64,000 nucleotides of DNA from Arenicella chitinivorans (GTDB lineage: Bacteria > Pseudomonadota > Gammaproteobacteria > Arenicellales > Arenicellaceae): NCBI RefSeq assembly GCF_014651515.1, contig NZ_BMXA01000009.1, positions 1 to 64,000 of the forward strand, in the 5' to 3' direction. The notes beneath the pieces were generated by a model, which ran no database searches, was not told the origin of the DNA, and saw nothing but the letters and a program-made list of their open reading frames with translations. Shown here one piece after another: positions 4,454 through 52,285 of the stretch (position 1 is its first letter; each line of letters begins with the position of its first letter). The position numbers and the translations under genes were made by a program.

Positions 4454-7400
4454 ATGCCGCCATTAAACTGCATTAATAAAACCGCATTAGCTATGGCGAT
4501 TGGCCATGCATTGAGCACGCCACTGCAGGCTGCCACCATTGAGGTCACATCAAACGCTGATGACGGCACCAACTGCACTTTGCGTGAGGCAATTAATACC
4601 GTCAACAGTGGCTCTGATCAAACCAACGGTTGCAATATTGATGTTACTAACGACGCCTTGGGCAGCAACGACATTATTCAATTTGCCCCCAACGTGGCGG
4701 GGCAAACCATTACGCTGGCGGGTAGCGAATTAACGGTTACCAGTAGCGTGAGCATTAACCCCAATGGCGCTAACACCGGTACCTCCACCACGATTGACGC
4801 CAACAAAGCCTCACGGGTAATGAGCGTTACTAGCGGCACCGTGCAACTCGATCATTTGGTGATTAGCGGTGGTCTCGTAGAGAATGGTGGCGGCTTGTAC
4901 GCCACAGGTACGGCAAGCGTCAGTATCAGCAATAGCACGCTGTCGGGTAATTCGGCATTAGAGGGCGGCGGGTTGGTCGCCATAGATACGGCCAGCGTCA
5001 GTATCAGCAATAGCACGCTGTCGGGTAATTCCGCAGCTGGTGGCGGCGGCTTGGTCGCCCGAAACTCGTCAAGCGTCAGTATCAGCAATAGCACGCTGTC
5101 GGGTAATTCAGCCGGTTTTGATGGCGGCGGGTTGTACGCCAAAAATACAGCAAGCGTCAGTATCATCAATAGCACGCTGTCGGGTAATTCGGCTTTTTTG
5201 TGGGGCGGCGGCTTGGACGCCAAAAATACAGCAAGCGTCAGTATCAGCAATAGCACGCTGTCGGGTAATTCGGCTCGCTTTGGCGGCGGCGGATTGCAGG
5301 TCCAACACACGGCAAACGTCAGTATTAGCAATAGCATCATCGCTAATTCCGCAAGCGGTGCGTGTTTTAATGGGGGATCAGGTACAATAGCCATTGCCAC
5401 CGACAGTATCGTGGATGACACAAGCTGTAGTGGCGCGTCCTTTGCTAACCCACTGCTTGAGCCATTAGCCGACAATGGCGGCCCCACGTTAACCCATGCT
5501 TTGATGAGTGGTAGCCCAGCAATTAATCGAGCCACCGGAGCGGGTGCCACCAGTACCGACCAACGCGGTTTTGCGGCGGTCGGCACGCGCGACATTGGCG
5601 CGTTTGAATTTGGTGTGATGGATCCAAATGCCAAACTAAACCTAACCGTCACCAGCACCGCCGACGACAACGGCGCTGGGTGTACCCTGCGAGAAGCAAT
5701 CGCCACCACCAACGCGCGGGGTGATTTAGATAACGGGTGTTTTAATATTGGCTCACAACCTGATGATCACATTATTCAATTTGCGCCCAACGTGGCGGGG
5801 CAAACCATTACGCTGGCGGGCAGCGAATTAACGGTTACCGGTAGCGTGAGCATTAACCCCAATGGCGCTAACACCACGATTGACGCCAACCAAGCCTCAC
5901 GGGTGATGAGCGTTACTAGCGGCACCGTGCAACTCGATCATTTGGTGATCAGCGGGGGCAATGCACTTAATGGCGGCGGCTTGAACGCCACAGGTACGGC
6001 AAGCGTCAGTATCATCAATAGCACGCTGTCGGGTAATTCAGCTGATGGAGGCGGCGGCGGGTTGCTCCCCCGAGAGTCGGCCAGCGTCAGTATCAGCAAT
6101 AGCACGCTGTCTGGTAATTCGGCTCGCTTTGGCGGCGGCTTGACCGCAGTAGGTAGGTCAAGCGTCAGTATCATCAATAGCACGGTGTCGGGTAATTCAG
6201 CTGATAGTGATGGCGGCGGCTTGGACATCACAGCCTTGGCAAGCGTCAGTATCATCAATAGCACGGTGTCGGGTAATTCAGCTGGTTTTGATGGCGGCGG
6301 CTTGAGCGCCCAATCTATCTCAAGCGTCAGTATTATCAATAGCACGCTGTCGGGTAATTCGGCTGGTGATGACGGCGGCGGCTTGAACGCCCTATTCCAT
6401 ACAAGAGTCAGTATCATCAATAGCACGCTGTCGGGTAATTCGGCGAGTAATTCGCCTGGTGGTGGAGGCGGCGGCTTGCACGCCCGAGAAAGGGCAAGCT
6501 TCAATATCAGCAATAGCATCATCGCTAATTCCACAGGCGGTGCGTGTTTAAATAGGGGAACAGGCACAATAGCCATTGCCACCGACAGCATCGTGGATGA
6601 CTCAAGCTGTCGTGGCGCGACCGTTGCTGACCCACTGCTCGAGCCATTAGCCGACAATGGCGGCCCCACGTTAACCCATGCTTTGATGAGTGGTAGCCCA
6701 GCAATTAATCGAGCCACCGGAGCGGGTGCCACCAACACAGATCAACGCGGTTTTGCGGCTGTTGGCACGCGCGACGTTGGCGCGTTTGAATTTGGTGTGA
6801 TGGATCCAAATGCCAAACTAAACCTAACCGTCACCAGCACCGCCGACGACAACGGCGCTGGGTGTACCCTGCGAGAAGCAATCGCCACCACCAACGCGCG
6901 GGGTGATTTAGATAACGGGTGTTTTAATATTGGCTCACAACCTGATGATCACATTATTCAATTTGCCCCCAACGTGGCGGGGCAAACCATTACGCTGGCG
7001 GGCAGCGAATTAACGGTTACCGGTAGCGTGAGCATTAACCCCAATGGCGCTAGCACCACGATTGACGCCAACCAAGCCTCACGGGTAATGAGCGTTACTA
7101 GCGGCACCGTGCAACTCGATCATTTGGTGATTAGCGGTGGTAGCGCAAGCGTAGGCGCAACTCGAGGCGGCGGCTTGTACGCTGGAGACTGGTCAAGCGT
7201 CAGTATCAGCAATAGCACGCTGTCGGGTAATTCGGCTTCTGTTGGCGGCGGGTTGCACGCCCAAGACTCGGCAAGCGTCAGTATCAGCAATAGCACGCTG
7301 TCGGGTAATTCGGCTCGCTTTTACGGCGGCGGGTTGCACGCGCAAGACTCGGCAAGCGTCAGTATCAGCAATAGCACGCTGTCGGGTAATTCGGCTCATT

Positions 7401-8761
7401 CTCGTGGCGGCGGCTTGTACGCCGAATACTCGGCCAGCGTCAGTATCATTAATAGCACGCTGTCGGGTAATTCGGCGGTTTTTGGTGGCGGCGGGTTGGT
7501 CGCCACAGATACGGCAAGCGTCAGTATCAACAATAGCATCGTCGCTAATTCCGCAGGCGATGCGTGTGACGGTATAGGTATTATAGCGATTGCCACCGAC
7601 AGTATCGTGGATGACACAAGCTGTCGTGGCGCGACCGTTGCTGACCCACTGCTTGAGCCATTAGCCGACAATGGCGGCCCCACGTTAACTCATGCCTTGT
7701 TGAGCGGTAGCCCAGCGATCAACCCTGGTTCTAGTGTCAACCCCACCAGCACCGACCAACGCGGTTTTGCGGCGGTCGGCACGCGCGATGTTGGCGCGTT
7801 TGAGGCACAGCAGCTTAGCGTGTCAGTGTCACCAGACGTCATGCCTGAAAATGGCGGCGCGAGTACCGGCACCGTCACGCGCTCAGTGTTAATTGACCGA
7901 CCACTTGAGGTTAATCTTGCCAGTAGCGATCTAAGCTCAGCCATGGTGCCCACGAGCGTGGTGATTCCGGCGGGTGAGGCATCTGCCACGTTTGCGATTT
8001 CTGCGGTTGACGATACTCTGGCCGACGGCAATAGCATCAGCACCATTTCGGTGAATGCCATCGGCTATGTGGTTGGTTCCGCGACCGTAACCGTCGTTGA
8101 CAATGACACGCCCAGTTTAGGGTTAACACTCAACAGCTCATCAATCAGCGAGAGCGGCATAACGGTGGCGACTGTTAGCCGCAATACTCCGACTAACACC
8201 GCGCTTAACGTCAGCTTAAGCAGCAATAACCCGACTCGACTAGTAATCCCCGCCACGGTTGAGATTCCGGTCGGCGCGGCGTTTGTTAATTTCAATATCA
8301 CCGGCATCGATAACACCACACTCGATGCCGACCAATTGGTCACCATTACCGCCAGCGGCCTCGGCAGCGTAACAGCTAACTTGTTGGTGACCGACGACGA
8401 TGACGATGACACAGATGGCATCGCTGATAATGCTGACAACTGCCCAAGCACGCCTAACCCGAATCAAGACGATTTTGAGGGCGACGGGATAGGCGACGCA
8501 TGTGACAATGATATTGACGGTGATGGTATGTCAAACCAATACGAGCTCGACAACGGCTTAAACCCGCGTAATTCGTTCGACCGAGACGCCGATCCCGATG
8601 GTGATGGCTTTACTAATTTAGAAGAGTTTGAGTTTTCAACCGACCCGAATGTGCCGAACCCTGATGATGACAACAATGGCATTCCGGATGACGCACCAGT
8701 GGCTACGCCGCAACGCCGATTCCCACTCCCGGCTATCTTGCCGTTGTTATTAGACGAATAA
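4454..8761 (+). CDS. CSLREA/choice-of-anchor Q beta-helix surface protein, copy 1
   Basis: This is a 1435-aa exported protein. The signal peptide ends near residue 27 (STPLQA-AT). Three modules follow, each with a CSLREA motif (CTLREAI), a parallel beta-helix of ~22-24-residue repeats with core SVSISNSTLSGNSA plus GGGL (5, 6 and 4 repeats), and a choice-of-anchor Q ending (NGGPTLTHALMSGSPAIN to RDIGAFEFG). Two Calx-beta-like domains (about residues 1110-1310), an Asp-rich thrombospondin type 3 region and the C-terminus RRFPLPAILPLLLDE complete it. The likely role is a calcium-stabilised surface or secreted adhesin or polysaccharide-interacting protein; no catalytic site is evident. The terminal motif is not IPTL- or PEP-CTERM. 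The downstream small gene begins 18 bp later, suggesting co-transcription. Confidence 0.85.
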   Translation: MPPLNCINKTALAMAIGHALSTPLQAATIEVTSNADDGTNCTLREAINTVNSGSDQTNGCNIDVTNDALGSNDIIQFAPNVAGQTITLAGSELTVTSSVSINPNGANTGTSTTIDANKASRVMSVTSGTVQLDHLVISGGLVENGGGLYATGTASVSISNSTLSGNSALEGGGLVAIDTASVSISNSTLSGNSAAGGGGLVARNSSSVSISNSTLSGNSAGFDGGGLYAKNTASVSIINSTLSGNSAFLWGGGLDAKNTASVSISNSTLSGNSARFGGGGLQVQHTANVSISNSIIANSASGACFNGGSGTIAIATDSIVDDTSCSGASFANPLLEPLADNGGPTLTHALMSGSPAINRATGAGATSTDQRGFAAVGTRDIGAFEFGVMDPNAKLNLTVTSTADDNGAGCTLREAIATTNARGDLDNGCFNIGSQPDDHIIQFAPNVAGQTITLAGSELTVTGSVSINPNGANTTIDANQASRVMSVTSGTVQLDHLVISGGNALNGGGLNATGTASVSIINSTLSGNSADGGGGGLLPRESASVSISNSTLSGNSARFGGGLTAVGRSSVSIINSTVSGNSADSDGGGLDITALASVSIINSTVSGNSAGFDGGGLSAQSISSVSIINSTLSGNSAGDDGGGLNALFHTRVSIINSTLSGNSASNSPGGGGGGLHARERASFNISNSIIANSTGGACLNRGTGTIAIATDSIVDDSSCRGATVADPLLEPLADNGGPTLTHALMSGSPAINRATGAGATNTDQRGFAAVGTRDVGAFEFGVMDPNAKLNLTVTSTADDNGAGCTLREAIATTNARGDLDNGCFNIGSQPDDHIIQFAPNVAGQTITLAGSELTVTGSVSINPNGASTTIDANQASRVMSVTSGTVQLDHLVISGGSASVGATRGGGLYAGDWSSVSISNSTLSGNSASVGGGLHAQDSASVSISNSTLSGNSARFYGGGLHAQDSASVSISNSTLSGNSAHSRGGGLYAEYSASVSIINSTLSGNSAVFGGGGLVATDTASVSINNSIVANSAGDACDGIGIIAIATDSIVDDTSCRGATVADPLLEPLADNGGPTLTHALLSGSPAINPGSSVNPTSTDQRGFAAVGTRDVGAFEAQQLSVSVSPDVMPENGGASTGTVTRSVLIDRPLEVNLASSDLSSAMVPTSVVIPAGEASATFAISAVDDTLADGNSISTISVNAIGYVVGSATVTVVDNDTPSLGLTLNSSSISESGITVATVSRNTPTNTALNVSLSSNNPTRLVIPATVEIPVGAAFVNFNITGIDNTTLDADQLVTITASGLGSVTANLLVTDDDDDDTDGIADNADNCPSTPNPNQDDFEGDGIGDACDNDIDGDGMSNQYELDNGLNPRNSFDRDADPDGDGFTNLEEFEFSTDPNVPNPDDDNNGIPDDAPVATPQRRFPLPAILPLLLDE

Positions 8762-8779
8762 AAACGAGTAACAATAATA

Positions 8780-9109
8780 ATGAAGACCTCAAACAAACCA
8801 CGCCCAGAACAAGTCATTCGCCGCCGCCGTCACCTTGTTGGTGTCTCAACCGCAGCGCTGCTATCACCATTGTGGAGCAAGCCACTGATCAACGCGGTGA
8901 TTTTACCGGCTCACGCACAAACCAGTATGTGTGTTACCGATATTACGGTTGGCGGCCCGTTGGCGGGTAACGCTTCTGGTGCAACAAGCTGTCAAGCGGC
9001 GTGCGAAGCCGAAGCGAGTAGCCGCGGGGCGCTACTGTGCGACGTGCGCGAAACCGACACCGGCAACGGCAACGGCATCGATTGTGCGTGTGACCTTGAT
9101 TTGAGCTAG
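8780..9109 (+). CDS. Small exported Cys-rich protein, copy 1
   Basis: This 109-aa protein has a basic n-region with an RRRRHLVG twin-arginine-like motif. A hydrophobic stretch (VSTAALLSPLWSKPLINAVI) follows, ending in LPAHAQTS, a typical cleavage region. The mature part of ~60 residues holds six cysteines (C, SC, AC, LC, DC, AC), so disulfides are likely if it is periplasmic. It lies 18 bp after the large beta-helix gene and is duplicated with it, so the two probably work together. The SP-W-KP-AV-LPAHAQTS signature is familiar from small exported gammaproteobacterial proteins, but I know no function. Confidence 0.7.
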   Translation: MKTSNKPRPEQVIRRRRHLVGVSTAALLSPLWSKPLINAVILPAHAQTSMCVTDITVGGPLAGNASGATSCQAACEAEASSRGALLCDVRETDTGNGNGIDCACDLDLS

Positions 9110-12600: not shown

Positions 12601-13980
12601 CTGTCGGGTAATTCGGCGGTTTTTGGTGGCGGCGGGTTGGTCGCCACAGATACGGCAAGCGTCAGTATCAGCAATAGCACGCTGTCGGGTAATTCGTCTG
12701 ATATTGGTGGCGGCGGGTTGTACGCTGGAGACTCGGCCAGCGTCAGTATCAACGATAGCATCGTCGCTAATTCCGCAGGCGATGCGTGTTTCGGTTCAGG
12801 TATAGCCATTGCAACCGACAGCATCGTGGATGACTCAAGCTGTCGTGGCGCGACTGTTGCTGACCCACTACTCGGCCCATTAGCCGACAATGGCGGCGCC
12901 ACGTTAACTCATGCCTTGTTGAGCGGTAGCCCAGCGATCAACCCTGACTCTAGTGTCAACCCCACCAGCACCGACCAACGCGGTTTTGCGGCGGTCGGCA
13001 CGCGCGACGTTGGCGCGTTTGAGGCTCAGCAGCTTAGCGTGTCAGTGTCACCAGACGTCATGCCTGAAAATGGCGGCGCGAGTACCGGCACCGTCACGCG
13101 CTCAGTGCTAATTGACCGACCACTTGAGGTTAATCTTGCCAGTAGCGACCTAAGTTCAGCCATGGTGCCCACGAGCGTGGTGATTCCGGCGGGTGAGGCA
13201 TCTGCCACGTTTGCGATTTCTGCGGTTGACGATACTCTGGCCGACGGCAATAGCATCAGCACCATTTCGGTGAATGCCATCGGCTATGTGGTTGGTTCCG
13301 CGACCGTAACCGTCGTTGACAATGACACGCCCAGTTTAGGGTTAACACTCAACAGCTCATCAATCAGCGAGAGCGGCATAACGGTGGCAACTGTTAGCCG
13401 CAATACTCCGACAAACACCGCGCTTAACGTCAGCTTAAGCAGCAATAACCCGACTCGACTAGTAATCCCCGCCACGGTTGAGATTCCGGTCGGCGCGGCG
13501 TTTGTTAATTTCAATATCACCGGCATCGATAACACCACACTCGATGCCGACCAATTGGTCACCATTACCGCCAGCGGCCTCGGCAGCGTAACAGCTAACT
13601 TGTTGGTGACCGACGACGATGACGATGACGCCGATGGCATCGCTGATAATGCTGACAACTGCCCAAGCACGCCTAACCCGAATCAAGACGATTTTGAGGG
13701 CGACGGGATAGGCGACGCATGTGACAATGATATTGACGGTGATGGTATGTCAAACCAATACGAGCTCGACAACGACTTAAACCCGCGTAATTCGTTTGAC
13801 CGCGACGCCGATCCCGATGGTGATGGCTTTACTAATTTAGAAGAGTTTGAGTTTTCGACCGACCCGAATGTGCCAAACCCTGATGATAATAACGATGGCA
13901 TTCCGGACGACGCACCAGTGGCTACGCCGCAACGCCGATTCCCACTCCCGGCTATCTTGCCGTTGTTATTAGACGAATAA
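9610..13980 (+). CDS. CSLREA/choice-of-anchor Q beta-helix surface protein, copy 2
   Basis: This 1456-aa paralogue of the protein at 4454-8761 has the same signal peptide, three CSLREA/beta-helix/choice-of-anchor Q modules, two Calx-beta-like domains, a TSP3 region and the terminus RRFPLPAILPLLLDE. The modules hold 5, 6 and 5 beta-helix repeats, one more than copy 1 in module 3 (an added SDIGGGGLYAGDSASVSI unit). Differences cluster in the short variable turns between the invariant SVSISNSTLSGNSA cores (for example ALEGGGL against ASDGGGL). In module 2 several repeats look replaced wholesale. The Calx-beta and TSP3 parts differ at only a few residues. A repeat-coded surface protein evolving by unit exchange is the best reading. 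Confidence 0.85.
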   Translation: MPPLNCINKTALAMAIGHALSTPLQAATIEVTSNADDGTNCTLREAINTVNSGSDQSNGCNIDVTNDALGSNDIIQFAPNVAGQTITLAGSELTVSSSVSINPNGASTTIDANKASRVMSVTSGTVQLDHLVISGGLVENGGGLYATGTASVSISNSTLSGNSASDGGGLYATDTSSVSIVNSTLSGNSAAGGGGLVARNSSSVSISNSTLSGNSADFGGGLDARNSSSVSISNSTLSGNSAFLWGGGLDAKNTASVSISNSTLSGNSALFDGGGLQVQHTANVSISNSIIANSAGGDACAGSGIAIATDSIVDDSSCSGATVVADLLLEPLADNGGPTLTHALLSGSPAINPGSSVNPTSTDQRGFAAVGTRDIGAFEFGAMDPNARLNLTVTSTADDNGAGCTLREAIATTNARGDLDNGCFNIGEQTDDHIIQFAPNVAGQTITLAGSQLTVTSSVSINPNGANTGTSTATTTTIDANQASRVMSVTSGTVQLDHLVISGGNALNGGGLNATGTASVSIINSTLSGNLVFRYGGGLFATDTVNVSISNSTLSGNSTFSYGGGLNAAGTSSVSIINSTLSGNSAGLYGSGLDVRDTASVSISNSTLSGNSADFGGGLYAGDSSSVSIINSTLSGNSASVGGGLGAGDSASVSISNSTLSGNSALAGGGLLAPGTASVSISNSIIANSAGGDACAGSGIAIATDSIVDESSCSGATVVADLLLEPLADNGGPTLTHALMSGSPAINRATGAGATNTDQRGFAAVGTRDVGAFEFGVMDPNAKLNLTVTSTADDNGAGCTLREAIATTNARGDLDNGCFNIGSQPDDHIIQFAPNVAGQTITLAGSELAITRSVSINPNGASTTIDANKASRVMSVTSGTVQLDHLVISGGSASVGATRGGGLYAGDWSSVSISNSTLSGNSASVGGGLYAGTLASVSISNSTLSGNSARFYGGGLHAQDSANVSISNSTLSGNTARNSGGGLYAEYSASVSIINSTLSGNSAVFGGGGLVATDTASVSISNSTLSGNSSDIGGGGLYAGDSASVSINDSIVANSAGDACFGSGIAIATDSIVDDSSCRGATVADPLLGPLADNGGATLTHALLSGSPAINPDSSVNPTSTDQRGFAAVGTRDVGAFEAQQLSVSVSPDVMPENGGASTGTVTRSVLIDRPLEVNLASSDLSSAMVPTSVVIPAGEASATFAISAVDDTLADGNSISTISVNAIGYVVGSATVTVVDNDTPSLGLTLNSSSISESGITVATVSRNTPTNTALNVSLSSNNPTRLVIPATVEIPVGAAFVNFNITGIDNTTLDADQLVTITASGLGSVTANLLVTDDDDDDADGIADNADNCPSTPNPNQDDFEGDGIGDACDNDIDGDGMSNQYELDNDLNPRNSFDRDADPDGDGFTNLEEFEFSTDPNVPNPDDNNDGIPDDAPVATPQRRFPLPAILPLLLDE

Positions 13981-13998: not shown

Positions 13999-14322
13999 AT
14001 GAAGACCTCAAACGAACCACGCCCAGAACAAGTCATTCGCCGCCGCCGTCACCTTATTGGTGTCTCAACCGCAGCGCTGCTATCACCATTGTGGAGCAAG
14101 CCACTGATCAACGCGGTGGTTTTACCGGCTCACGCACAAACCAGTATGTGTGTTACCGATATTACGGTTGGCGGCCCGTTGGCGGGTAACGCTTCTGGGG
14201 CAACAAGCTGTCAAGCGGCGTGCGAAGCCGAAGCGAGTAGCCGCGGGGCGCTACTTTGCGACGTGCGCGAAACCGACACCGGCAACGGCATCGATTGTGC
14301 GTGTGACCTTGATTTGAGCTAG
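13999..14322 (+). CDS. Small exported Cys-rich protein, copy 2
   Basis: This 107-aa paralogue of the gene at 8780-9109 again lies 18 bp after the large gene. It has the same RRRRHL twin-arginine-like start, LPAHAQTS cleavage region and six cysteines. It differs by a few substitutions (K to E at residue 6, V to I, I to V) and by loss of one GN pair (GNGID against GNGNGID), an in-frame 6-bp change. Preservation of the frame in both copies supports it being a real gene. Confidence 0.7.
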   Translation: MKTSNEPRPEQVIRRRRHLIGVSTAALLSPLWSKPLINAVVLPAHAQTSMCVTDITVGGPLAGNASGATSCQAACEAEASSRGALLCDVRETDTGNGIDCACDLDLS

Positions 14323-14826: not shown

Positions 14827-17800
14827 TTAGTACACCTTCAATGCACCTGGGAGAGAGTCATAATACGCTAACCGAGATTCTATATAGCTTACTAAATTTG
14901 CGTAATTATTCACTACCTGTGGAAGAAGATCTGACGCAGGCGGGTTATACGATAAGCTTGGGTTCTGCTGATACATAGCCCGATAACAAATCATAGCCGC
15001 TAGAAAGTACACCGTCGGTACACCGTGTGGCGCATCATCTTCATATAATTGTTCAAACGATACACCATTCATATACGGTTCATTGGTAATAATATCGGCA
15101 ATAATTGGGCCCACAGGTATAGTTCGCACGTTGTAGTCTGGACGCTGCGCGGCAATTAGGTTCTGGTACTCAACATGCCAATCATAGTAATGACCAGTAC
15201 TGGTGTATTGATTGTATGTAGCGAAATCGTTGTCGCTCATCTGGTTACCGTTTTGCACCATAATGCCGAGCATCGACGGTTCAGGCCAGTGCATATACAG
15301 CATGATGTCTGTACTCGGTTCTTCTTGCTCCACAAAATCAAGTACTCGGTACGTATCGCTCAGATACTGATTTGGTGTGAGGTACTCTTGCTCAAAATTA
15401 CTCGGCATAAATAGGGTATGCGTGTAATCACGCCCACCAAAGCCATCGGTTGCCCACCACGGCCACGGATTTTCGTCGGTGTTGTTAGTCGGATAATCGA
15501 ACACGGCATCAGGGTTGGGCGGAATCGATGTATAACTTAGCTGACCGAATTGACCGTTACCTCCAGCAATAGTGTTACTCGCCTGAGCCAATAGACCCAA
15601 CCAATAGCCGGCATTCTTTTCACCATGATTGAATAAAGAGTGGCCAAACACAAAATACGTGACTTGGTCTAGATTGCTCGCCTCCTCAAGTGTGGTCACA
15701 GACAACGCCATTGAGACAGCTGAACGGTTATCAGCCTCGTCTATTGCCATTACCGTCAATGAATAGGTGGTCGATGGATCTAACGAATTAATTGATGCGC
15801 TGGTAGTAGTACTGCTGGACACTTCTGAGCCGTTAACAAAAACTGCATAGCGGCTTACACCAACATTATCGCTGGCAGCATTCCATGAAAATGTAACCGA
15901 GTTCGAGGTCACAGTGTCAGCGTTCAAGCCCGTTGGGGCGGTCGGTGGTTGAGTATCGCTGCCAGGCGCAAAAACCTCATCGTCATCAATATACATGTCA
16001 CGATCGATGGAACTAATAAAAGTAATTAAGTCGGCTTCTTGCGTGCCACTGAAGCTTTGCTGATGCGCGCCACGATCGAAAACATCACTTAATGTCGCCG
16101 CAGAACCGTCATGAAAATAGGGCGCACTTTGCCACAATTCTATGAGTGACGGTGTACGAATCGCGGTTAGTAGTCCACCGAGCCGACTACCTGAATCACT
16201 GGTGATTGTGCCCACATCGTGTGACCGTCCATCACGGAACGCATTACCACTATGACAAGACGCGCAACCGCGCTCATTGAATTCGATTTGCCCACGCAAT
16301 GCAGCCGGTGTGAGTTCGCCAACATAAGTTCGATACGGCGACCGACTCACGGTTTTTTTGCCGAGACTGGCCACGTACGCCGCCAATGCATCTAAGTCAG
16401 GTGAACGGTTACTCGTGGCAAAATCGAGTGGTGACTGCCCAGTGAATGTGACGCCATCAATTAGACCCGTACCCGCATTGAGTTGCTCAATTTGCAATTC
16501 AAAATCTTGCACTTCGTCAAAGTTAGAAGACCAATGCAGATTACCAAAACGTGTTCCACTGGTGCCATTTAGCGATAGAGTGTTGCGTAAGCCTTCGCCC
16601 AGTGCCGAAATATCCCAAACACGCCCATCCCCGCCGCTGTCAACATGGCAACTCGAACAACTCATGTAGCCTTCTGGGCCCATTTCTGGCATTGACGAAT
16701 GGTAGAACACTTGCTTGCCACGTAATTGCTCAGCTGTCATTAGCTCATCCGACACCGTGTTGATGGTGACCACCCGAGGATTGATGTTGCCATCGTGCAA
16801 GTACTCGGCTACGTCAATAGCCGACACGGTTCGCCCCGTAAAATCCTTCACATATAGCGTGCGCAAGGTTGTACACATACTCTGTGGTGCTGACCCTGCC
16901 GGAAACAGCGCACCGGTGTTGCGCGTGGCGTTGTCGACTTTAACTAAATTGTTACCTTGCAAAGACACAACTCGGTCTTGGCCACTTACCAAAAACGTTA
17001 CTGCCGAGGGGTCAGCCGCATTATCAAAATCGATCGTTCCCTCTCGTGTGAACGGATCAACATTGGCATCTCGATTATTCACCAGGTCTAGTCGAATCAA
17101 CATAGGGCGAACAGTGTTATCGTCATCCAGTGGTTCGCCACTGCGGGTCAACCCTCGATCGGTATTGGACTTAACCGCTGAGACCAGCGCTTCCTGGCCA
17201 TCTGGCGTAATAACAATCCCAGACAACAAATTGGGTACACCCGATCCGTGATCAATGTCGTCTTGCACGGTCACTTTATTTACCCGAATAGTACGAGTAA
17301 GCGTCATGTCTCGACTGGTATTTACGTCATACACCTCAGCGTAATCGGTTGCCGATATTTGACGCGTTACCAGTAAGCGATTACCGGTCATGGCCATAGC
17401 ATTTGGTGTGGGACCGACAAATAGTCGCGCGTCAATCGCTCGATTCGCTACGTCTATTTTTATAACTTCACCGGAACCGTAGAGCGCCACATAGAGAAAC
17501 TCATCGCTGCTTAGCGACGCTATAGGTTGACTACCGTGACCAGAATCAAGGCTAAATACAGGATTGCGAGTGATCGCGTCGTAAAACACTATTTTGTCAT
17601 CGCGGCGAAAAGTAATCGCGTACAGCTCACCGACCCGAGTAATTGAAGTCGGGTTTTCATAGTTTAGATACAACTCCTCGGTAACCGAACTGCTGAGCCG
17701 TTGGGTGGTTGCATCAAGCGTTGTATCAATCACCGTGACACTGTCATTATCTGGATTAACTACCCAAAGGTTGTTGTCTTCAGACTCTGGTCGACAACTT

Positions 17801-19764: not shown

Positions 19765-20333
19765 TTCAGCACCTCCACTGTGGCTGGTAAGCTGAACACA
19801 CTGCTACCGTCTAACTCATAGCATTCAATCAACACTTGATAGGTTCCCGAATCGCCAACATTAGGCATATAGAACTCACCGGAATGAGAAAAAAATTGCT
19901 CGGGGCGCCTACCTTGCACGCCATATAGAACTCGGCATTCATCGGGCGACGCAGCAAGCCAGCGCAAATACAGGCTGCCCACAGTACTGTCTGTATCAAC
20001 AATCACCAGCGAGTCAGCAACGGCTGGATCTGGGTCGCGATTATCACCAATTCCATCATTGTCGTCGTCAACTGATTCAGTTGGATCATCTGGAAACGCA
20101 TCAAATTGGTCTGGGACGCCGTCCTTATCATGATCTGATAGTGCGTTAGTGCCGCTCGCACTCAATAACCGCAAGTGAACTGGGTCTCTGAAGCGATGGT
20201 CGTGTGTAACCGTTGACTGTGCATAGGCCGTGCCAGTTAGGAACAAAAAACTAACACAGACTTTAATCGGAATATTAGAGGAGCCGCGTTGAGCTATCGA
20301 TGATCGTGGTTTACGTGCATATGTGATTTTCAT
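19761..20333 (-). CDS. Secreted TSP3-repeat protein upstream of the giant cytochrome
   Basis: This 190-aa protein has a basic n-region and signal peptide (VCVSFLFLTGTAYA-QS). The mature part contains calcium-binding thrombospondin type 3-like repeats (DHDKDGVPDQFDAFPDDP and VDDDNDGIGDNRDPDP, about residues 67-105). It ends in a beta-rich domain of ~75 residues that I do not recognise. The start has AAGGA five bases upstream. Its stop overlaps the start of the 1645-aa gene by 4 bp, so it is the first gene of a two-gene operon and is probably a partner of the large protein. Confidence 0.75.
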   Translation of the reverse strand: MKITYARKPRSSIAQRGSSNIPIKVCVSFLFLTGTAYAQSTVTHDHRFRDPVHLRLLSASGTNALSDHDKDGVPDQFDAFPDDPTESVDDDNDGIGDNRDPDPAVADSLVIVDTDSTVGSLYLRWLAASPDECRVLYGVQGRRPEQFFSHSGEFYMPNVGDSGTYQVLIECYELDGSSVFSLPATVEVLK

Positions 20334-24256: not shown

Positions 24257-24437
24257 GCAATTATATTGCGGGCATATTTGAGAGTTTTTTAGCAGGTCGT
24301 TGACTGAGTTGATGATCTACTAAAAGGCCTGCTCAATCGGAGTCTTTAACATAAAAGTGTCACAGGTTAACCATGTCTTTAGGTTAGTTATAAGGTGTGA
24401 TAATTCTAATAAAAGTACCAAGTGGAGGATGAATACA

Positions 24438-26885: not shown

Positions 26886-26948
26886 TCCTAACCTAGAGTT
26901 GAATATTCTGCGGTACGTCGTGGCATATATTTAGCTCGACAATGACAA

Positions 26949-30575: not shown

Positions 30576-30628
30576 TCATGAATATAAACTTTACTTAATT
30601 CGATCATATTTCAGTAGGGAACTACGGC

Positions 30629-31012: not shown

Positions 31013-31058
31013 CACGAATCGATAAAATTAAGAACTTAGAACGAGATAGGAATAGGGT

Positions 31059-31379: not shown

Positions 31380-31428
31380 GCTTGCCTGCTGGTTCGACAA
31401 TTATAAACTACCTTAATCCGCTGTCTAA

Positions 31429-36125: not shown

Positions 36126-37493
36126 CTAGGGGGCCGGTTTCAACAACAGTGTTAAAAAAATATTGTCATAATCTGCGTCGCTTTGGAAAAGGTGCGAGGC
36201 CACACTCGATCGGCTTAGTTCATACCCTGCTGGTCTAGAGATATATTGCGTTGCATTTTCCCAAGCTGCTGAACAATTGTTGCACTTTACCCGGATGGTC
36301 CAGCCGAGAGTACTGCTGTCGGTGGGAACACCGATTTCAAAAGGAATCATTGCGTCGCCAGCCTCTGGATAGTAGTAGAATGAGAATACCGTAGGGAAAT
36401 CAAAACCGGATGTGGCTTGTTCCACTGAAACGACTATTTGCTCTTCGCCGCTTGCAACTTCAGTGCCGGGAAAGTCGATACCGCCCGAATAGCTGTCGGC
36501 CGGTTCAAGTGTGATAGGTACATTCACGCTTGTATTCACGTCATAGCTGGTCGCGCCAAAAAAGTCCGTGGTCCCCGTCGTGTTGCTCCAGAATCCACCG
36601 GTCGTAACGTCAATCTCAGCACACCCTTTGAGACATTCGTATTCTAGGTCTCGTGTGACACCATCGCCACTAATCAGAAACGGAAATTCATAGTCAACTT
36701 CGGTCTCGCCGGCAGGAATCGTGACTTTTGCCGAACTGGTTTGAAGGCTCGAGCCACCGAAGTCAATCGCTACCGGGAAGGTCCTAATGTCAACTTCCAG
36801 ACCGCCTGCTGGCGCCACAACACCGCTAGGTAGCCTGAGTTTTCCGAACACTTTGGCTGTCTCTGGTGCAGTGGTTGTTTGATCATCAACTAAAAGTAAG
36901 CCCAAGATTGATGGAATGACTTGAATCGCGCTCGCTTGAGAGTCGGTTGACTCGTTGCTTGTATCAAAGCATCTCCACGGTTTAACGTTGTTCCCTGACT
37001 CGATTCGGAAATGATCGAATAAGACTTCAGAGATGGGGCCGCTGGAATGGTCGAAGATAATAGCCCACTGGAAAGACCCGACGTTGCGAGTAAGATAATA
37101 CGAACGAGTACACCACTGATTATTTGTGTCCTCGAGTTGCTTGGTAATTAACCCTTGCGGGGAACCGAAGATCAAATCAAGCGTTTCCACTTTGGCGGCG
37201 TTGAACTTGTTGTACTTGTAGTCAAAAGTGATTGTGACAAAGTCATCAACGAAATACCCGCCTGTTACCCCACCATTTTGATCTTGGCTCGGTAGTACTT
37301 GAAGCGAAGAAACACCAAAGGTGACGTCGTCGCGTCGTGTTTGGTATCGATCCGAAAATGGTTGGTAGGTGGCTAAATCTAATATTTTGGCAATAAGGTC
37401 GTTTTCGAACTGCGCCGCACTGGGCATGGAGAATCCAAGCCAAAACAGCGCGATGAAATACACGCACGAGGCCCGCGAAGAACATGAAAACAT
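36126..37493 (-). CDS. Exported protein with beta-sandwich domains
   Basis: This 455-aa protein has a signal peptide (about residues 1-27, GFSMPSAA-QF). I do not recognise a family. The N-terminal ~170 residues look like a beta-sandwich that may bind a ligand (WCTRSYYLTRNVGSFQWAII). A motif IPSILGLLLVDD follows at about 193-204 and resembles the C-terminal motif of the CSLREA and DUF7933-type proteins elsewhere in the window. The rest has Calx-beta-like or Ig-like repeats (VTIPAGETEVDYEFPF) with cysteine pairs (CLKGC, CNNC). It is monocistronic. Confidence 0.6.
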   Translation of the reverse strand: MFSCSSRASCVYFIALFWLGFSMPSAAQFENDLIAKILDLATYQPFSDRYQTRRDDVTFGVSSLQVLPSQDQNGGVTGGYFVDDFVTITFDYKYNKFNAAKVETLDLIFGSPQGLITKQLEDTNNQWCTRSYYLTRNVGSFQWAIIFDHSSGPISEVLFDHFRIESGNNVKPWRCFDTSNESTDSQASAIQVIPSILGLLLVDDQTTTAPETAKVFGKLRLPSGVVAPAGGLEVDIRTFPVAIDFGGSSLQTSSAKVTIPAGETEVDYEFPFLISGDGVTRDLEYECLKGCAEIDVTTGGFWSNTTGTTDFFGATSYDVNTSVNVPITLEPADSYSGGIDFPGTEVASGEEQIVVSVEQATSGFDFPTVFSFYYYPEAGDAMIPFEIGVPTDSSTLGWTIRVKCNNCSAAWENATQYISRPAGYELSRSSVASHLFQSDADYDNIFLTLLLKPAP

Positions 37494-39809: not shown

Positions 39810-41045
39810 TTAAACGGTTGGATCGGACTCATAAAAGGTGACGATAATGCTCGCGTCTTCGCCGGGTTTTCCGAGCGTGTCTACCACGGCCACTTCACCA
39901 ACTTCACCGGCGCGGCCACCTCGCCCGCCCGCCGCTCCAGCGCCACCTTCGCCGTAGACAAGTGTGGATCCGGAGAGCGCGCCTTCGGTGTACAAATAGT
40001 TTGCACCACCAGCTCCGCCACCACCGCTGCCACCGCTACCAGCGCCACCGCCGCCGCCGGCTCCAAAAAAACCCGCACTTTGATGACCAGCGCCGCCGCC
40101 ACCGCCAGCACCGCCGGTATCAAATACAGATTCGGCACTCGTATTGCTTGCACCAAGTCCACCAACAGTGCCTTCTCCTGCATCACCGGTAAGCCCTGGG
40201 ACGTTGCCTGCGCCGCGTCCACCCAAGGAGTCTTGGGAGGTGTAAGGAAACCCTTCGTTGTAGACTACGTTGCCACCGGCACCACCAGAAAAGAAGTTCG
40301 GTTTACCATTCTCGCCCCCTCGATCAATCGATTCGTTATCGTAAGTGCCGCCTTGGCCACCTTTGCCGCCAGAAAAATTACCGCTCTCTCCGACGTAACC
40401 ACCGCCAGCGCCGCCACCGCCGCCTGCGACAACATAGGGTTCGGTATTTCGCCACACAGCAGCATAGCCGCCACCGCCACCTCCGGACGTGCCGCCGTAA
40501 TTAAATTCAGAAGGGTTTACGAAAACTGTTCCACCACCATCACCGCCGTCAAAATCCCCGCCAGGGGCAGTGTCACCGGGTTCGGTTGCAATTCCGCCGC
40601 CGCGACCAACTCGTGCAGTCAGCACGTCACTGTCGGAAAACTGTGAGCCGATATCATAGATCGCCCGAACTGCACCGCCGTAACCACCGGATGCGCCAGC
40701 GGCTAATTCAGAAGCCTCGGTTGTCAGAGATGGTGCGCCAGCACCACCGGCTCCGTTGGCGACAATTTCAATAAAATTGGCATTAGCAGGAATACAAATT
40801 TCTTGCGGTGTGTCGGCTGCTGCTGCCGGCGAATAGGTGTCAGCAGACGAGAGCTGCGTCGGACACTCGCCATCATCATCAAGAAGCAAGGAAATAACGG
40901 AAGGTAGGGCGTCGGTATTGGCTTGCGCTGACTTTACGAAAGTAACTGCACCGGAGCCGGTAACCACCACTTGCTTGAGAAACTTGCGCCGTTGGTCACG
41001 CTCAGATTCGCTTAACTCAATGTTATTGTCTTTTTTCTTGGTCAC
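39810..41045 (-). CDS. Tat-type exported glycine-rich protein
   Basis: This 411-aa protein has a twin-arginine-like signal (QRRKFLKQVVVTGSGAV, cleavage near SAQA). Right after it comes DALPSVISLLLDDDGE, a motif like the C-terminal LLLD motif of other secreted proteins in the window. Then follow a short Cys-containing linker and ~300 residues very rich in Gly (GGGGGAGGG blocks), with the start pattern IPANANFIEIVANGAGGAG seen in glycine-rich, phage-tail-like adhesive domains. A GTG start at 41045 is preferred, as AGGAG stands seven bases upstream; the frame open to 41090 has no site. It follows the cupin-type oxygenase gene by 58 bp on the same strand. Confidence 0.72.
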   Translation of the reverse strand: MTKKKDNNIELSESERDQRRKFLKQVVVTGSGAVTFVKSAQANTDALPSVISLLLDDDGECPTQLSSADTYSPAAAADTPQEICIPANANFIEIVANGAGGAGAPSLTTEASELAAGASGGYGGAVRAIYDIGSQFSDSDVLTARVGRGGGIATEPGDTAPGGDFDGGDGGGTVFVNPSEFNYGGTSGGGGGGYAAVWRNTEPYVVAGGGGGAGGGYVGESGNFSGGKGGQGGTYDNESIDRGGENGKPNFFSGGAGGNVVYNEGFPYTSQDSLGGRGAGNVPGLTGDAGEGTVGGLGASNTSAESVFDTGGAGGGGGAGHQSAGFFGAGGGGGAGSGGSGGGGAGGANYLYTEGALSGSTLVYGEGGAGAAGGRGGRAGEVGEVAVVDTLGKPGEDASIIVTFYESDPTV

Positions 41046-44900: not shown

Positions 44901-45662
44901 CTATGGCGCGACAAGACGACGTAGTTTGCGGCTCGGAACCAATCGCCATTCCCAAGCTGGCTTGGTTGGCACCTGCATACTCTCAGTCAGCATGATAAAA
45001 GTGAGTAGCAGCATCACTGGCTGATGTGCCACCACAAAGACCGTTGACAGCAGCATGAGTGCCCAACATGAGCCGACACACCAGAAACCATGCCAAAGAC
45101 CAAAGCGCACAGCATCAAGATAGCTTCCAATCCCGTACGCGCGCAGCGCTGGATGCAGATGGTTGCGATTCAAGCACTGTTGCTTAGACGGTGAACATTG
45201 CCATACTAGGGCAAGCGTCAGTACAAGCATGATCAGCCCGGCTGGTGTGTCACTGAACGCCTGTCTAAGCGCCCGTGCGCCGAACAACAACAACGTGCCA
45301 GCGAGTATCCAGAGGTAAAGATATGTCATTAAAAACAAGGCTATCAGCGCAGCACGTTTATTGCGGAAACTTCGCTGTGCAAGGTGTGTGAGCGGGGCGA
45401 TTAAGGTGGGGAACATCATTGCGACAATCATAATTGCCCAACCAAACATGCTTGCACCGGTGAGCAGCGTCAGTGGCGACGTAAAACCAGACTGCGCGAT
45501 CAAAACACCATTAATACACATCGCACCGGCGAGTGATTCGGTGGCGCCTGTAAATTCGACCGGATCGGTTCGTGACCATAGGGTCAAATATACCCAAGCT
45601 ACCGCACTCAAGCACAACACGCCGCAGCTAATGCGGCGGCGTGTCTGGATGACATCAGTCAT
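44901..45662 (-). CDS. DUF2182 membrane protein
   Basis: This 253-aa integral membrane protein is of the DUF2182 family (predicted metal-binding, COG5486). About six helices carry the family motifs MMFPTLIAPLTHL, CSPSKQQCLNRNH, and GLWHGFWCVGSCWALML. The conserved Cys and His suggest copper or other metal handling. Its start overlaps the stop of the tyrosinase gene by 4 bp (ATGA), so it is co-translated with that copper enzyme. A role in copper delivery or membrane association of the tyrosinase is the simplest hypothesis. Confidence 0.85.
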   Translation of the reverse strand: MTDVIQTRRRISCGVLCLSAVAWVYLTLWSRTDPVEFTGATESLAGAMCINGVLIAQSGFTSPLTLLTGASMFGWAIMIVAMMFPTLIAPLTHLAQRSFRNKRAALIALFLMTYLYLWILAGTLLLFGARALRQAFSDTPAGLIMLVLTLALVWQCSPSKQQCLNRNHLHPALRAYGIGSYLDAVRFGLWHGFWCVGSCWALMLLSTVFVVAHQPVMLLLTFIMLTESMQVPTKPAWEWRLVPSRKLRRLVAP

Positions 45663-47194
45663 GAGCTGCTTTCGCGGTATACACCAATCCGACCAACGCT
45701 AATTTCTTCGCCGTTTGTAATCGACTTATCGGGTTGAATACGAACATCCAGTGAATCGGCGCCGAGACCTTGCTCAAGATGCAGCGCATCGATTATCTCA
45801 GTAATATCCAACTCTAGGTCCAGTCCAGAGCCGCCGTGTTCGCCTTCTTTGAGGCTTGCTCGTCGTAATCCAAACAAGGCGATACTGCCTGCCAACTTGC
45901 CGTTGACATAGACTATAAGTTTATTCGCATCGCGCTTGCCACGAACATTTTCCAGTTGTAAATAGGTGCGATCTGGAGCTTGATCAACCGCGGCGCTCGC
46001 TAGGGTTTTCAGCAGTGTATTTTTGACGGCGGGATTGAGCTTGACCGCGGCTCGAACACCAGCGCTGCCAATGGTAAGCGTGTGGTCGTGCGCGCCAAGT
46101 AGTTCTGAGTCAGGTTTGTTGGTATCAGATGCCATTGTTGTTACCTCTGCGTGGTTAATACCAAATCTGGCAAGCCGTTTTTGCACGGGTGACAGCACGT
46201 CGGTCGTGTCGATATCGGCGCTGAGTCCTTCGTAAGTATAGTCAACCTTACTCATGGCATCGACTTCCTGCGGCGTAAATACCCAAGCGGTTGAACCCGG
46301 TTTGGGCATGACGAATTCTCGATTACCGGTCGCGGCAGGGCCCTTAAGCCATCTCGCAGATGTTGGGTTTTTATTGCCGTTTGCATTCCAAACAGCCCAT
46401 AGGCGATCAATATTGCAATGATGCAGGTAAAAAATCGGGTCTAAGGCTGCCAGGCCTGGATCAGACATCAGGCCCCCAATACCATTCCCTGGTGCATCTC
46501 CACCAACGTCAACATGCACTTGATTGTGCGGATTGTTTTCCAGATTACCGGATTGGCCACCACCATGCCAGAAATCGGTCTCTGGGCCACCAAAGCCGGG
46601 GCGTGGTGTGTTTGGGCTGCTGCCGGTGTAGACATCATTCGTTAGACAATCCTGATTAACAGGCGGAATCTCGACGTAAATATTTCCGTCGCTCTTTGGG
46701 CCGAAACGTGCAGTAACAAAAAGAGGGTTATCTTCGCCATCCGGTAACGTCTGTTCAGTAAACGCAGGCGGAATGTGATACTCATTTCCAGGCCCCAGGT
46801 AATTCCAATAGGGCAGCGACCAAGATTGCGGTCCGCCAAGACTTACAATCGCCTCACGCAACTGCAATTCAAGTGCAATGAGATACCCTCGGTGCCAAGG
46901 CAAAAAATACCATGATTGATGCTGACATTGGTTCCAGTATTGTTTTAATACATCGCTTGAGGGCAGCGGTGATGTCGGTACGCTAGGCGCAGGTGGGATG
47001 TAAGCCCAACCTGGGTAGCCGGACTCTGTTCCGGACACATATTCGCCATGAATGGCGGCAAAAAACCACCAGCTGTTTGGGTCGTCTAGCGTGCGGGATT
47101 GCATAACCCCCACACCTTTTGCGTACCAATATAAATCTTGATTATCGAAAGTACCGTTGGAATTCCACGCGTTAGAACGAGTGTACGCTGTCAT
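45659..47194 (-). CDS. Tyrosinase/polyphenol oxidase family protein
   Basis: This 511-aa type-3 copper enzyme oxidises phenols or catechols to quinones. CuA ligands are His49 (AAIHGEY), His92 and His101 (CQHQSWYFLPWHRGYL). CuB ligands are His223 and His227 (NPHNQVHVDVGG), and His258 or His259 in DPIFYLHHCNIDRLWAVW. Cys90-x-His92 has the spacing of the thioether Cys-His pair of fungal tyrosinases. After the catalytic domain comes a plant-PPO-like linker (KVDYTYEGL, cf. the KVDYxY motif) and a beta-rich C-terminal domain ending SVGRIGVYRE. No signal peptide is seen. A strong ribosome site (AGGAAGGA) precedes the ATG. It is the first gene of an operon with DUF2182. Confidence 0.92.
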   Translation of the reverse strand: MTAYTRSNAWNSNGTFDNQDLYWYAKGVGVMQSRTLDDPNSWWFFAAIHGEYVSGTESGYPGWAYIPPAPSVPTSPLPSSDVLKQYWNQCQHQSWYFLPWHRGYLIALELQLREAIVSLGGPQSWSLPYWNYLGPGNEYHIPPAFTEQTLPDGEDNPLFVTARFGPKSDGNIYVEIPPVNQDCLTNDVYTGSSPNTPRPGFGGPETDFWHGGGQSGNLENNPHNQVHVDVGGDAPGNGIGGLMSDPGLAALDPIFYLHHCNIDRLWAVWNANGNKNPTSARWLKGPAATGNREFVMPKPGSTAWVFTPQEVDAMSKVDYTYEGLSADIDTTDVLSPVQKRLARFGINHAEVTTMASDTNKPDSELLGAHDHTLTIGSAGVRAAVKLNPAVKNTLLKTLASAAVDQAPDRTYLQLENVRGKRDANKLIVYVNGKLAGSIALFGLRRASLKEGEHGGSGLDLELDITEIIDALHLEQGLGADSLDVRIQPDKSITNGEEISVGRIGVYRESSS

Positions 47195-47476: not shown

Positions 47477-50400
47477 TTAGATGGGCGTGTTATCCAGCAA
47501 CAATTGGAACAGAATGCTTGGAATTGAATTGCGACGGCGCTGATCTACTTCATCTGGCACGCCATTTCCGTCGACATCGGCATCCGGTGAGTTCGGGTCT
47601 GTTCCAAACTGAAATTCCTGCAGATTGGTAAACCCGTCGTTGTCGTTATCGGCTTGCTGATCGAACGAGTTGAATGGGTCGAGACCATTGGCATTCTCGA
47701 AAGCGTCTGGCATTCCATCACCATCATCGTCGTCATCGCAAACATTGCCAATGTCGTCTGAATCTAAGTCGGCCTGATTCGCGTTCGGCGTGCGAGGACA
47801 GTTATCAACCGCGTTCAAGACGCCATCATTGTCTGTGTCGTCGTCTACCAGCAAGCTCGCATTGGCAGGGCCGCTGTTGCCCGACGAAGAAGTTAGATCT
47901 CCGGAGGTATTAACGAAATTTCCCCCAACTGAGGACGTTACAGCAATCTGTAGCGTACAGATGGCACCATCGGTGACGGTGCCATCGGTCAGGCTGATCG
48001 TACTGCTGCCGGATGTTGCAGTGACTGTGCCGCTACAGGTATTGATAAGATTAGCTGGTGTTGCAATCACTAAGCCTGTCGGCATGACATCGGTAAACGC
48101 GAGTGACGTGGCCGCGACTGGGCTGGCGCCGTTGTCGATCGTGAACACCAAGGTAGATACCTCGTCTGTATTGATCGCACTTGGCGTGAACGCTTTGCTA
48201 AATAACAGCGATGGCGGCACAACAACCAGGTCTTTTGTCGCCGCGTCGGCGGCGTAATCGCCACTCGCCGTTAAGGTGCTTGTTGTGTTCCGATAACTAC
48301 CGGGGAAAGTGGAGACAGGAACCGTTATGGTCACCTCAATTGTACATGTGGATTGCGCAGCAACTGAGGCATCTCGCACTGCTATGTTTGATGCTGCTGT
48401 CACAGACGGAGTGCCGCAGTTGCTTACAATTGCTGTACCGTCGGCAGCTAGCCCGGTCACAACGGCATCCAAGTCATCAGTGAACGCCAAACCGCTGATC
48501 GCCACTGTTTCTCGGTTCTCAATGACAAACGTCAAGGTCGTAGTCTCTCCAGCCTGCGGTGCCGGTGAGCCAAATACTTTAGTAAATCCAATATCTCGTA
48601 CTGTGAGCGTGGCGGTGGCAGTGCCACTATTGCCTAACGACGAGGTGAGATCACCGGATGTATTTAAGTACGTGCCTGCGACAGCAGCCGAAACTTCAAC
48701 TGAGACAGTACAACTTGAACTGGCTGATACCGTGCCACCCGAATAGGTGACTACCGCACCTCCAGCAAGTGCGGTGATCGTTCCACCGGTACAGCTGGTA
48801 GAAACATTCGGCGTTGCAGCGACTACCATGCCTGTCGGCAGGTTATCAGTGAAATCGATGCTGCTCGCGGAAAAGGTACTGCCCGAATTATCGATTGTGA
48901 ATTGAAGCACACTGGGGATCCCAACCGACACAAACTCCGGGGAGAATGTCTTGTTAAAACTCGGTACCAGGGTGACCGTCACGTCGTCTGTGGCTTCTTG
49001 CGCAATCACTAGACCATTCGAGGTTAACGGAGACGTGGTATTTTGAATCTCAACTTCACTCTCTATGAGGGGTAATTGAAAGTCCACTGTAAAACTACAT
49101 GTGCCACCGTTTGCTGCGACAGAGCCACCAGAAAACGCCAGAAAACTCGTTCCTGTCAGGGATGATCCAGGGCCGCATACGTCGATTAACGGCGTATTGG
49201 TTGCCACTAATCCAGTCAAAACATCATTTAGATCATCCGTAAAACTAAGCTGGTTCACCGGGTCAGTAGCGTGGTTATTGGTGATGGTAAATGTCATCGC
49301 CCCAGAACCGCCACTGATGAAAAATGGCTCAGCGAAGCTCTTGCTAAACGTGACATCATAGTCGGTAACGGTAATTCTGGCTGACGCAGGCTCTCCGTTG
49401 ACAGCCAACCCTGACACCGTGCCAGATACGTCTGACGTAGTGTTGGTAAAATTACCCGTTCCAACGAGAGGCGGCACACCAAGATTGATGGTGAGGGTAC
49501 AGCTGCTGTTGGCCAACAATGTACCGTCAGAAACTTCTAGAACCCCGTTCATCGACGTGGCAAAAGAGTAGGGGGCATCTTCACATGTGCTCATGGCCGC
49601 ATCCACACCTTCGAATGTGAAGCCCGGCAAATGTGTGTTGATGTCATCTGAAAAGGCAACTGACTGAACATCTTGAGTTGTACTCAAATTGCTAACCATA
49701 AACTGCATTTGTACAGGTGAATCCAGCTGTACGGTCTGATTAGAAAAAGACTTCTGCAACTGAATAAACGTCGAGTCCACCAATAACAGATCCCGTGCAG
49801 GCAGAGCCGTGACGTTACTCCCATCAATCGTTGCCGTTAACATCGACGTTTGACTCAGATAACTGCCGTTTGGCGTTGCAGCAGGGGTTGAAACAGTCAC
49901 TTCGATGTTGCAACTGCTATCAGGCGCTAGCGTTCCACCCGAAAAAAACAACAGGGTAGTGCCTGACAAGGTACCGCCACACCCATTCGTTTGTGGTGGA
50001 AGCGTAAAAGTCAAACCAGGGATGACGTTGCCTAAAGCGAACCCAAATGACATGTTAGATGCCGCATTGACGTCGTCGTTGTTGGTCACTGTAAAACGCA
50101 GTGTACTGGAGCCTCCGGCGATTACAGGGTCGTCCAAGTAAATCTTGCTGAATACAAGTGGGGAAATCGCAATTGTGGCGCTGGCCGGCGACGATTGTAC
50201 AGATTCTCCATTCAACGTCGCAGAGAGATTTGTGGTGCTGTTGGTATACACACCATGGCTAGTCTCGGGGGGAACATCAAGCGTAACAGCAAAGGTGCAG
50301 CTCTCGCCAATCGTAAGTTCGCCATCGGTTAAGGTCAATACGCCATTAACGTGCGTCAGCGAGGAGCCTTCGCCGCATGCAGGACCTGTGGGCAAGGTTA

Positions 50401-52285: not shown

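Follow-up and report, generated by a model that had tools for sequence, protein, structure and literature searches.

A short, portable peptide tag, separate from the TSP3-type linker that precedes some of its copies, lies at protein ends in the genus of Arenicella chitinivorans. It spans 12–15 residues with the rough consensus [ILV]-P-[PSA]-[IV]-[IL]-x-L-L-L-x-[DE]-[DE], is biased towards the ends of mostly signal-bearing proteins of unrelated families, shows less amino-acid change than its surroundings and occurs in two genera. We propose, with a probability of roughly 45%, that it acts as a portable address tag on exported proteins, which would dock after inner-membrane export and would most likely be read by the T2SS; the helical form of the tag, its docking and the T2SS as receptor are the parts of this model that we infer.

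The window and its five tagged proteins

The window, that is, the whole stretch of DNA analysed here, comprises 64,000 nt of A. chitinivorans (GCF_014651515.1, NZ_BMXA01000009.1, positions 1 to 64,000, forward strand). All five motif copies that a first-pass annotation had placed in it, in P0001, P0002, P0003, P0004 and P0005, were found (Table 1), and a profile of four window peptides (A1) recovered all five at E ≤ 1e-5, other matches being weaker. The P0003 protein and its tag stand as annotated, but its ORF reaches 52312, the position 52285 given for it being a later in-frame ATG. The ends of P0001, P0002 and P0003, which had been read as a shared C-terminal module, do align, the last ~127 residues of P0001 having 97% and 56% identity to the same region of P0002 and P0003, respectively; this module nevertheless consists of two things, a TSP3 linker and a separate tag of 12–15 residues. 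The RR given as the start of the motif is absent from most tag peptides. The copy in P0004 does lie inside its protein, in a linker ahead of a C-terminal domain, whereas that in P0005, also described as internal, begins just behind a Tat-type signal recognised by eye and so probably marks the mature N-terminus. Several further exported-looking proteins of the window, among them P0006 and P0007, carry no tag, which weighs against the model proposed above.

Table 1. Tagged proteins, tags and linkers of the window, and further tag copies in the A. chitinivorans genome (window positions, or contig:position)
Feature	Position	Strand	Description
P0001	4454..8761	+	CSLREA / choice-of-anchor Q protein, 1435 aa, C-terminal tag
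P0001 linker	8378..8722	+	TSP3-type acidic linker ahead of tag (carrier, outside the tag itself)
P0001 tag	8726..8758	+	C-terminal, LPAILPLLLDE, directly abutting stop codon
P0002	9610..13980	+	CSLREA protein, 1456 aa, near tandem copy of P0001, C-terminal tag
P0002 tag	13945..13977	+	C-terminal, LPAILPLLLDE
P0004	36126..37493	-	455 aa, tag between N-terminal part and C-terminal domain
P0004 tag	36882..36917	-	Linker, IPSILGLLLVDD, six residues ahead of domain (residues 211-455)
P0005	39810..41090	-	Glycine-rich, 426 aa, tag just past Tat-type signal
P0005 signal	40920..40991	-	Tat-type, RRKFLKQVVVTGSGAVTFVKSAQA, assigned by eye
P0005 tag	40872..40907	-	N-terminal, LPSVISLLLDDD, 4 residues past Tat-type signal
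P0003	47477..52312	-	DUF7933/DUF11 repeat protein, 1611 aa, C-terminal tag
P0003 linker	47537..47875	-	TSP3-type linker ahead of tag
P0003 tag	47489..47524	-	C-terminal, IPSILFQLLLDN, 3 residues short of stop
Own-genome copy	C7:3207		C-terminal, after TSP3, 179-aa frame, no visible signal
Own-genome copy	C2:786953		C-terminal, after TSP3
Own-genome copy	C1:15033		C-terminal
Own-genome copies	C6:198494, C6:213576, C2:89470, C2:602811		Just past signal peptide seen by eye

TSP3 and the tag are separable, because TSP3 relatives elsewhere lack the tag and few tagged proteins contain TSP_3. No tag was present in the 60 C-terminal residues of 23 TSP3 relatives from named genomes of several phyla, several of whose frames end at the locus edge, and TSP3 was rejected as a part of the signal on the basis of the C-termini examined. 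Pfam TSP_3 matched 4 of the 74 tagged proteins scanned, a count that leaves out 15 others for length, including the three long proteins of the window in which TSP3 is present. An open frame of 12792 aa (G000:C1, ~1181700-1185040) also gave weak matches to the TSP3 module.

Several other features of the window were recorded. The P0001 and P0002 genes are near tandem copies ~5156 bp apart, both made of internal repeats, and each is followed by a gene for a small protein (8780-9109 and 13999-14322, +) with the Tat-like signal RRRRHLxGVSTAALLSPLWSKPLINAVxLPAHAQ, a similar one being found at L030 4067-4606 (-). A two-gene unit at 14827-20333 (-) encodes a 190-aa TSP3-like protein and a large MauG/RoxA-like protein; by eye the unit seems to occur twice in the genome, the second copy lying at L031 1390-5750 (-), and its small protein is tagged in the L031 copy and untagged in the window copy (P0007). 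A catabolic-looking cluster (23009-32667, +) includes a P450, a TonB receptor, a SnoaL-like protein, an AMP-binding enzyme, an aldehyde dehydrogenase and a ferredoxin-reductase-like protein, and a tyrosinase gene adjoins a PpoB2-type copper chaperone gene (44901-47194, -). The gene at 52520-54508 had no confirmed match among viral contigs, the P0003 C-terminus had none in a plasmid collection, and a DNA pattern for LLLDD in a single codon choice gave 0 matches, which is uninformative.

Position, carriers and taxonomic range of the tag

Outside the window, searches of the A. chitinivorans genome with the TSP3 module and the eight-row profile A3 revealed further tag copies (Table 1). The A3 HMM, built from 8 seeds of this genome only, gave 64 matches at E ≤ 1 in 17 congeneric genomes (G001-G017), at least one per genome; no rows were dropped, and all 64 contexts were retrieved and sorted by fixed rules. 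Eight matches fell in ORFs under 100 aa. The 56 in ORFs of at least 100 aa comprised 29 at the C-terminus, where the mean chance was 6.7%, 21 within 95 aa of the start and 6 internal ones. The acidic end was present in 28 C-terminal matches and absent from one. An acidic residue past LLL was found in 17 of the start-proximal matches; the other four lack it and belong to a single antiporter-like family. Of the 17, 14 have a Sec or Tat signal recognisable by eye ahead of the tag, one has none visible, and the remaining two, an orthologous pair, were ambiguous by eye. The internal matches were four members of a cytochrome-like family, a thioredoxin-like protein and a proline-rich linker (L165), all named by eye. 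The first-pass annotation had anticipated a C-terminal bias as opposed to random placement: matches in the sister species are indeed biased to protein ends, and to the C-terminus in particular, but 17 of the 46 acidic terminal matches lie near the N-terminus and a few copies sit in linkers. Tags are present in 17 of the 18 genus genomes, including that of A. chitinivorans, since all matches in G016 (81% complete) were judged to be chance.

Across 21 genomes of the family, the forward profile A4 yielded 106 matches at E ≤ 1 compared with 11 for a reversed-motif HMM; the two models differ in row number, and A4 contains 26 seeds from the same genomes and the reversed model none, so that about 80 of the forward matches are non-seeds. 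Family members outside the genus contributed two forward matches, in ORFs of 37 and 40 aa. For reading, 92 of the 106 rows were taken on, one of them later than the others; the 14 left out were the two from outside the genus, four cytochrome-like, one antiporter, one real tag (L220) and six unread. The other 91 rows gave 84 accepted tags, the remaining 7 being set aside, partly by eye, and these 84 feed the position, export, logo and cluster counts given below. Separately from these rows, a few minus-strand or clipped contexts, such as L059, L060, L064 and L065, were left out. Variants such as ITPIINYLLFSD suggest that the lists at E ≤ 1 are incomplete.

Among the 84 kept tags, 54 are C-terminal and the others N-terminal or in linkers; tags at chain ends often lie behind Pro/Gly/Ser-rich linkers. 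LLL ends 0-12 residues ahead of the stop in the 54 C-terminally tagged proteins, and in 21 proteins it starts 8-26 residues (median 12) past the cleavage site assigned by a heuristic that over-calls. A logo comparison of the 84 kept tags and six peptides added by hand showed conserved columns common to N- and C-terminal copies ([ILV], P/other, P/S/A, I/V, I/L, x, L, L, L, L/D, D/E, D/E), the two sets differing at -1, which is mostly S in N-terminal and mixed in C-terminal copies, and at -7. Four residues separate the most variable column (-1) from +3, a spacing that would suit one side of a helix; a strand would alternate. AlphaFold2 predicted a short helix at 249-256, past a linker, for the C-terminal tag of lipase L130, the pLDDT being under 50 at residues 243-248 and 250-252; for a DUF1800 protein the mean pLDDT was 32. 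In the proposed model, the tag would probably be a short helix, hydrophobic on one face and acidic at its end.

Among tagged ORFs whose 5' end is complete, 49 of 77 passed a strict signal-peptide heuristic, versus 70 of 264 other ORFs at the same loci; this heuristic misses many signals visible by eye and replaced an earlier one that was positive in 153 of 278 control ORFs. Most tagged ORFs missed by the heuristic have a signal by eye, but at least three (G008:C24, G000:C7 and G002:C64) show none, so the expectation of signal peptides in all matches holds for most of them. Signals of the Tat type were recognised by eye in the tagged proteins P0005, L121, L204 and L214. For N-terminal tags, none of the 21 cleavage sites assigned by the over-calling heuristic had a cysteine at +1, the lipobox mark of bacterial lipoprotein sorting.

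With the tag masked, 81 tagged proteins fell into 42 clusters (blastp E ≤ 1e-5 over at least 50 aa; 3 ORFs under 100 aa left out), 17 of them tagged only N-terminally, 21 only C-terminally and none at both ends; the largest holds 11 proteins, joined partly by TSP3. This spread agrees with the earlier proposal of a portable signal on unrelated exported proteins and goes well beyond the paralogues of the window. Carrier scans with Pfam and NCBIfam covered 74 proteins between 120 and 1000 aa long; length excluded 15 of the 84, and 5 extras were added. Pfam identified GDSL lipases (8 of 74), M35/HRXXH, S8, reprolysin and trypsin peptidases, DUF1800 (4), CARDB (6), Spondin_N, FG-GAP and others, and similarity to PlaA, PlaC, CpaA and Mep72 was found among the best 25 of 86 NCBIfam families, for which cut-offs are not given. 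PlaA, PlaC and CpaA are T2SS substrates. In the N-terminally or linker-tagged proteins, some of whose frames are incomplete, neither a second tag nor a GlyGly-CTERM-like C-terminal tail was seen.

The same domain can be tagged on either side. In P0004 the tag precedes the domain at residues 211-455, and in L175 and L190, from other species, it follows that domain at the C-terminus, the domain lying after the signal; identity is 32% over 250 and 245 positions, with E-values of 3e-34 and 2e-37 from two-sequence comparisons. Of 12 DUF1800 loci retrieved, four of them already noted, 10 place a tag or variant between the signal and the domain, nine recognised by pattern and L274 by eye; L275 lacks a tag and L271 was unreadable by pattern. 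Among 13 tagged orthologue or paralogue pairs, pS was 0.63 in the tag, 0.61 in the flanks and 0.58 in the rest, and pN was 0.14, 0.25 and 0.23, respectively. The lower amino-acid change in the tag is only supportive, because the pairs were chosen as both tagged, two proteins were used twice and one DUF1800 pair showed the opposite trend (tag pN 0.42).

For the class-wide and second-genus searches we used profile A5, whose peptides were picked by eye, so that both searches lean towards the motif. Of 369 genomes spread evenly over the class, 13 had a match at E ≤ 0.1: four of the source genus, two of another genus (G183 and G297; family f135, related at the level of the class only) and seven others. 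Six of the seven, found in short ORFs, in an RNase G-like protein or at an internal site, were judged to be chance, and the seventh, L226, has an in-frame stop. In G183 and G297, 7 of 8 matches at E ≤ 1 were terminal: the tag lies just past the signal in L223 and L235, some 30 residues past it in L227 and L242, which are probably orthologues, and at the C-terminus in L251, L252 and L253, the last without the acidic end; L239 has it at residue 20 of a 54-aa frame whose 5' end is missing. The tag is therefore present in two genera of different families and, at E ≤ 0.1, in no other among the 369 genomes.

T2SS and rhombosortase as candidate partners

Of the genomes scanned for GspD (TIGR02517), 16 of the 19 with tags and 9 of the 17 without had a match over the cut-off, G018-G033 having been called untagged from the A3 search. 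Within the genus this holds for 15 of 18 genomes, namely 14 of the 17 that are tagged plus the untagged G016, and it also holds for both genomes of the second genus. The tagged genomes without a full GspD were G001 and G006, which have partial matches, and G010, which has none (85% complete, 310 contigs). In the three untagged family members, G018, from sister genus g2, was over the cut-off and G019 and G020 were not. Since untagged genomes also encode GspD, the T2SS alone does not explain the tag; as a partner it is compatible, not diagnostic. Other arrangements of these genes were seen: in addition to the thrC-gspDEFG cluster, G003 and G005 each carry another GspD with its own T2SS-like cluster (L263 and L264), and in the second tagged genus a gspC-like gene and gspD are immediately preceded upstream by a gene that is RCC1-like by eye (L259 and L260). 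RCC1-like proteins are tagged in the source genus, and the one at L259/L260 shows no tag.

Three of the 18 genus genomes (G000, G007 and the untagged G016) had a rhombosortase (TIGR03902) match over the cut-off, as did the untagged G018 and G032; G003 and G008 were just under it, and the tagged G183 and G297 had no match. Lower-scoring matches, which are general rhomboids, were seen in 34 of 36 genomes and equally in all 14 control genomes. We rejected rhombosortase as the partner because its presence does not follow that of the tag. At L031 6038-8877 (-), beside a tagged gene, a rhombosortase gene over the cut-off adjoins a gene for a protein with a GlyGly-CTERM-like tail. With rhombosortase and GspD tested, no dedicated processing or secretion gene of the kind suggested to accompany the motif was found, and no receptor for the tag was identified.

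Interpretation of the tag

None of the known signals compared here matches the tag. Searches of NCBIfam and Pfam, with the same 10 tagged pieces, and of PDB sequences gave no match, which led us to reject a known family from these three sources; two of the pieces matched TSP3-type parts of NCBIfam models, under the cut-offs. Searches of the open-licence literature on sorting signals, T2SS signals, LLLDD strings and choice-of-anchor proteins returned no description of it. Signals of the PEP-CTERM and IPTL-CTERM type are tripartite, with a TM helix and a basic end, and occur only at the C-terminus. Like these and MYXO-CTERM, the tag follows variable bodies, such as the choice-of-anchor type in the CSLREA proteins; unlike them, it is not tripartite, and no CTERM model of NCBIfam matched at E ≤ 10 in any of the 10 pieces. 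The earlier distinction from IPTL- and PEP-CTERM, made from the missing TM helix and basic tail, is thus confirmed, and the same observations, together with the distribution of rhombosortase, speak against the suggested anchoring where this would be of the sortase or rhombosortase type. GlyGly-CTERM resembles the tag as a short signal on varied exported gammaproteobacterial proteins, some of them T2SS cargo, and A. chitinivorans itself encodes a rhombosortase together with a protein that by eye is GlyGly-CTERM-like (L031). The tag differs from it in having a short hydrophobic core followed by D/E in place of a Gly/Ser motif, TM-length helix and basic tail, in its occurrence at either end and in the two tagged genomes that have no rhombosortase match. 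The SVAGG GlyGly-CTERM model appeared in 2 of 74 carriers (best E 0.018, among the best 25 of 86 families).

In the reading we favour, a flexible linker would tether this short helix, which could function at the start or end of the mature protein as well as between two domains. Recognition would most likely follow the crossing of the inner membrane, because proteins with Sec-type and Tat-type signals are both tagged. The T2SS takes folded Sec and Tat substrates and would for this reason be the most likely reader, the tag recruiting the extracellular enzymes and surface proteins of the genus; we know of no common T2SS substrate signal. A more specific form of the proposal, a position-independent linear signal by which the T2SS or an adaptor would read one short helix at either end of exoproteins in two genera, is tentative, with the odds somewhat against it. 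T2SS substrate recognition is called unresolved in a review (PMC10128026), and two reports describe the Pel3 signal as composite loops (PMC7949064) and the VesB signal as a graftable Ig-fold (PMC12369372). The tag would share with both the recognition of exported folded proteins, and it differs in being one linear peptide on many proteins, where each of theirs belongs to a single protein and consists of loops or a folded domain. A linear T2SS tag would be new.

The main rival, unlikely as we judge it, is that the tag serves retention rather than secretion, as a ligand holding secreted proteins to a scaffold, an outer-membrane receptor or the matrix. Its location at chain ends, often behind the Pro/Gly/Ser-rich stretches, and the surface-type repeat proteins among the carriers (CSLREA, DUF11/DUF7933, choice_anch_Q) would suit such docking, as would the failure of the T2SS distribution to account for that of the tag; many carriers, however, look like exoenzymes of the soluble kind, such as GDSL lipases and peptidases of families S8 and M35, and no scaffold was found.

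Two further explanations appear quite improbable, and about equally so. In one, tag helices would pack together or with a shell, clustering cargo outside the cytoplasm in the manner of encapsulation peptides, described as short terminal amphipathic helices on disordered linkers (PMC12339742). The encapsulation peptide of bacterial microcompartments is the nearest known concept: it too is portable between proteins, and the tag would have a similar design if it forms the predicted short terminal helix behind a linker, with a hydrophobic face and charge; the cargo of encapsulation peptides is cytoplasmic, whereas most tag carriers have an export signal, the tag is shorter and has an acidic end, and the tagged enzymes share no obvious pathway. 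In the other, a periplasmic protease would recognise the tag as a processing site or pro-segment and remove it on maturation. Such segments do lie right after the signal peptide or at the C-terminus, but the linker copies would imply that a protein is cut in two, and rhombosortase does not track with the tag. Finally, chance hydrophobic stretches, signal-peptide leftovers or alignment bias do account for some HMM matches (the antiporter-like LPAILFLLLSG, the cytochrome-like GSVPSIYQLLLP and the RNase G-like PSVIDLLLDEE, all named by eye, and ORFs under 100 aa), but such an origin is highly implausible for the tag in view of the terminal enrichment in non-seed species, the reversed-HMM control, the logo common to both ends and the restriction to two genera at E ≤ 0.1.

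If the T2SS does read it, a natural 12-residue tag on dozens of unrelated exoproteins would make T2SS cargo choice testable with simple fusions. Even with another receptor, a tag of the export compartment that occurs at either end and in linkers allows the tagged exoproteome of the genus to be listed.
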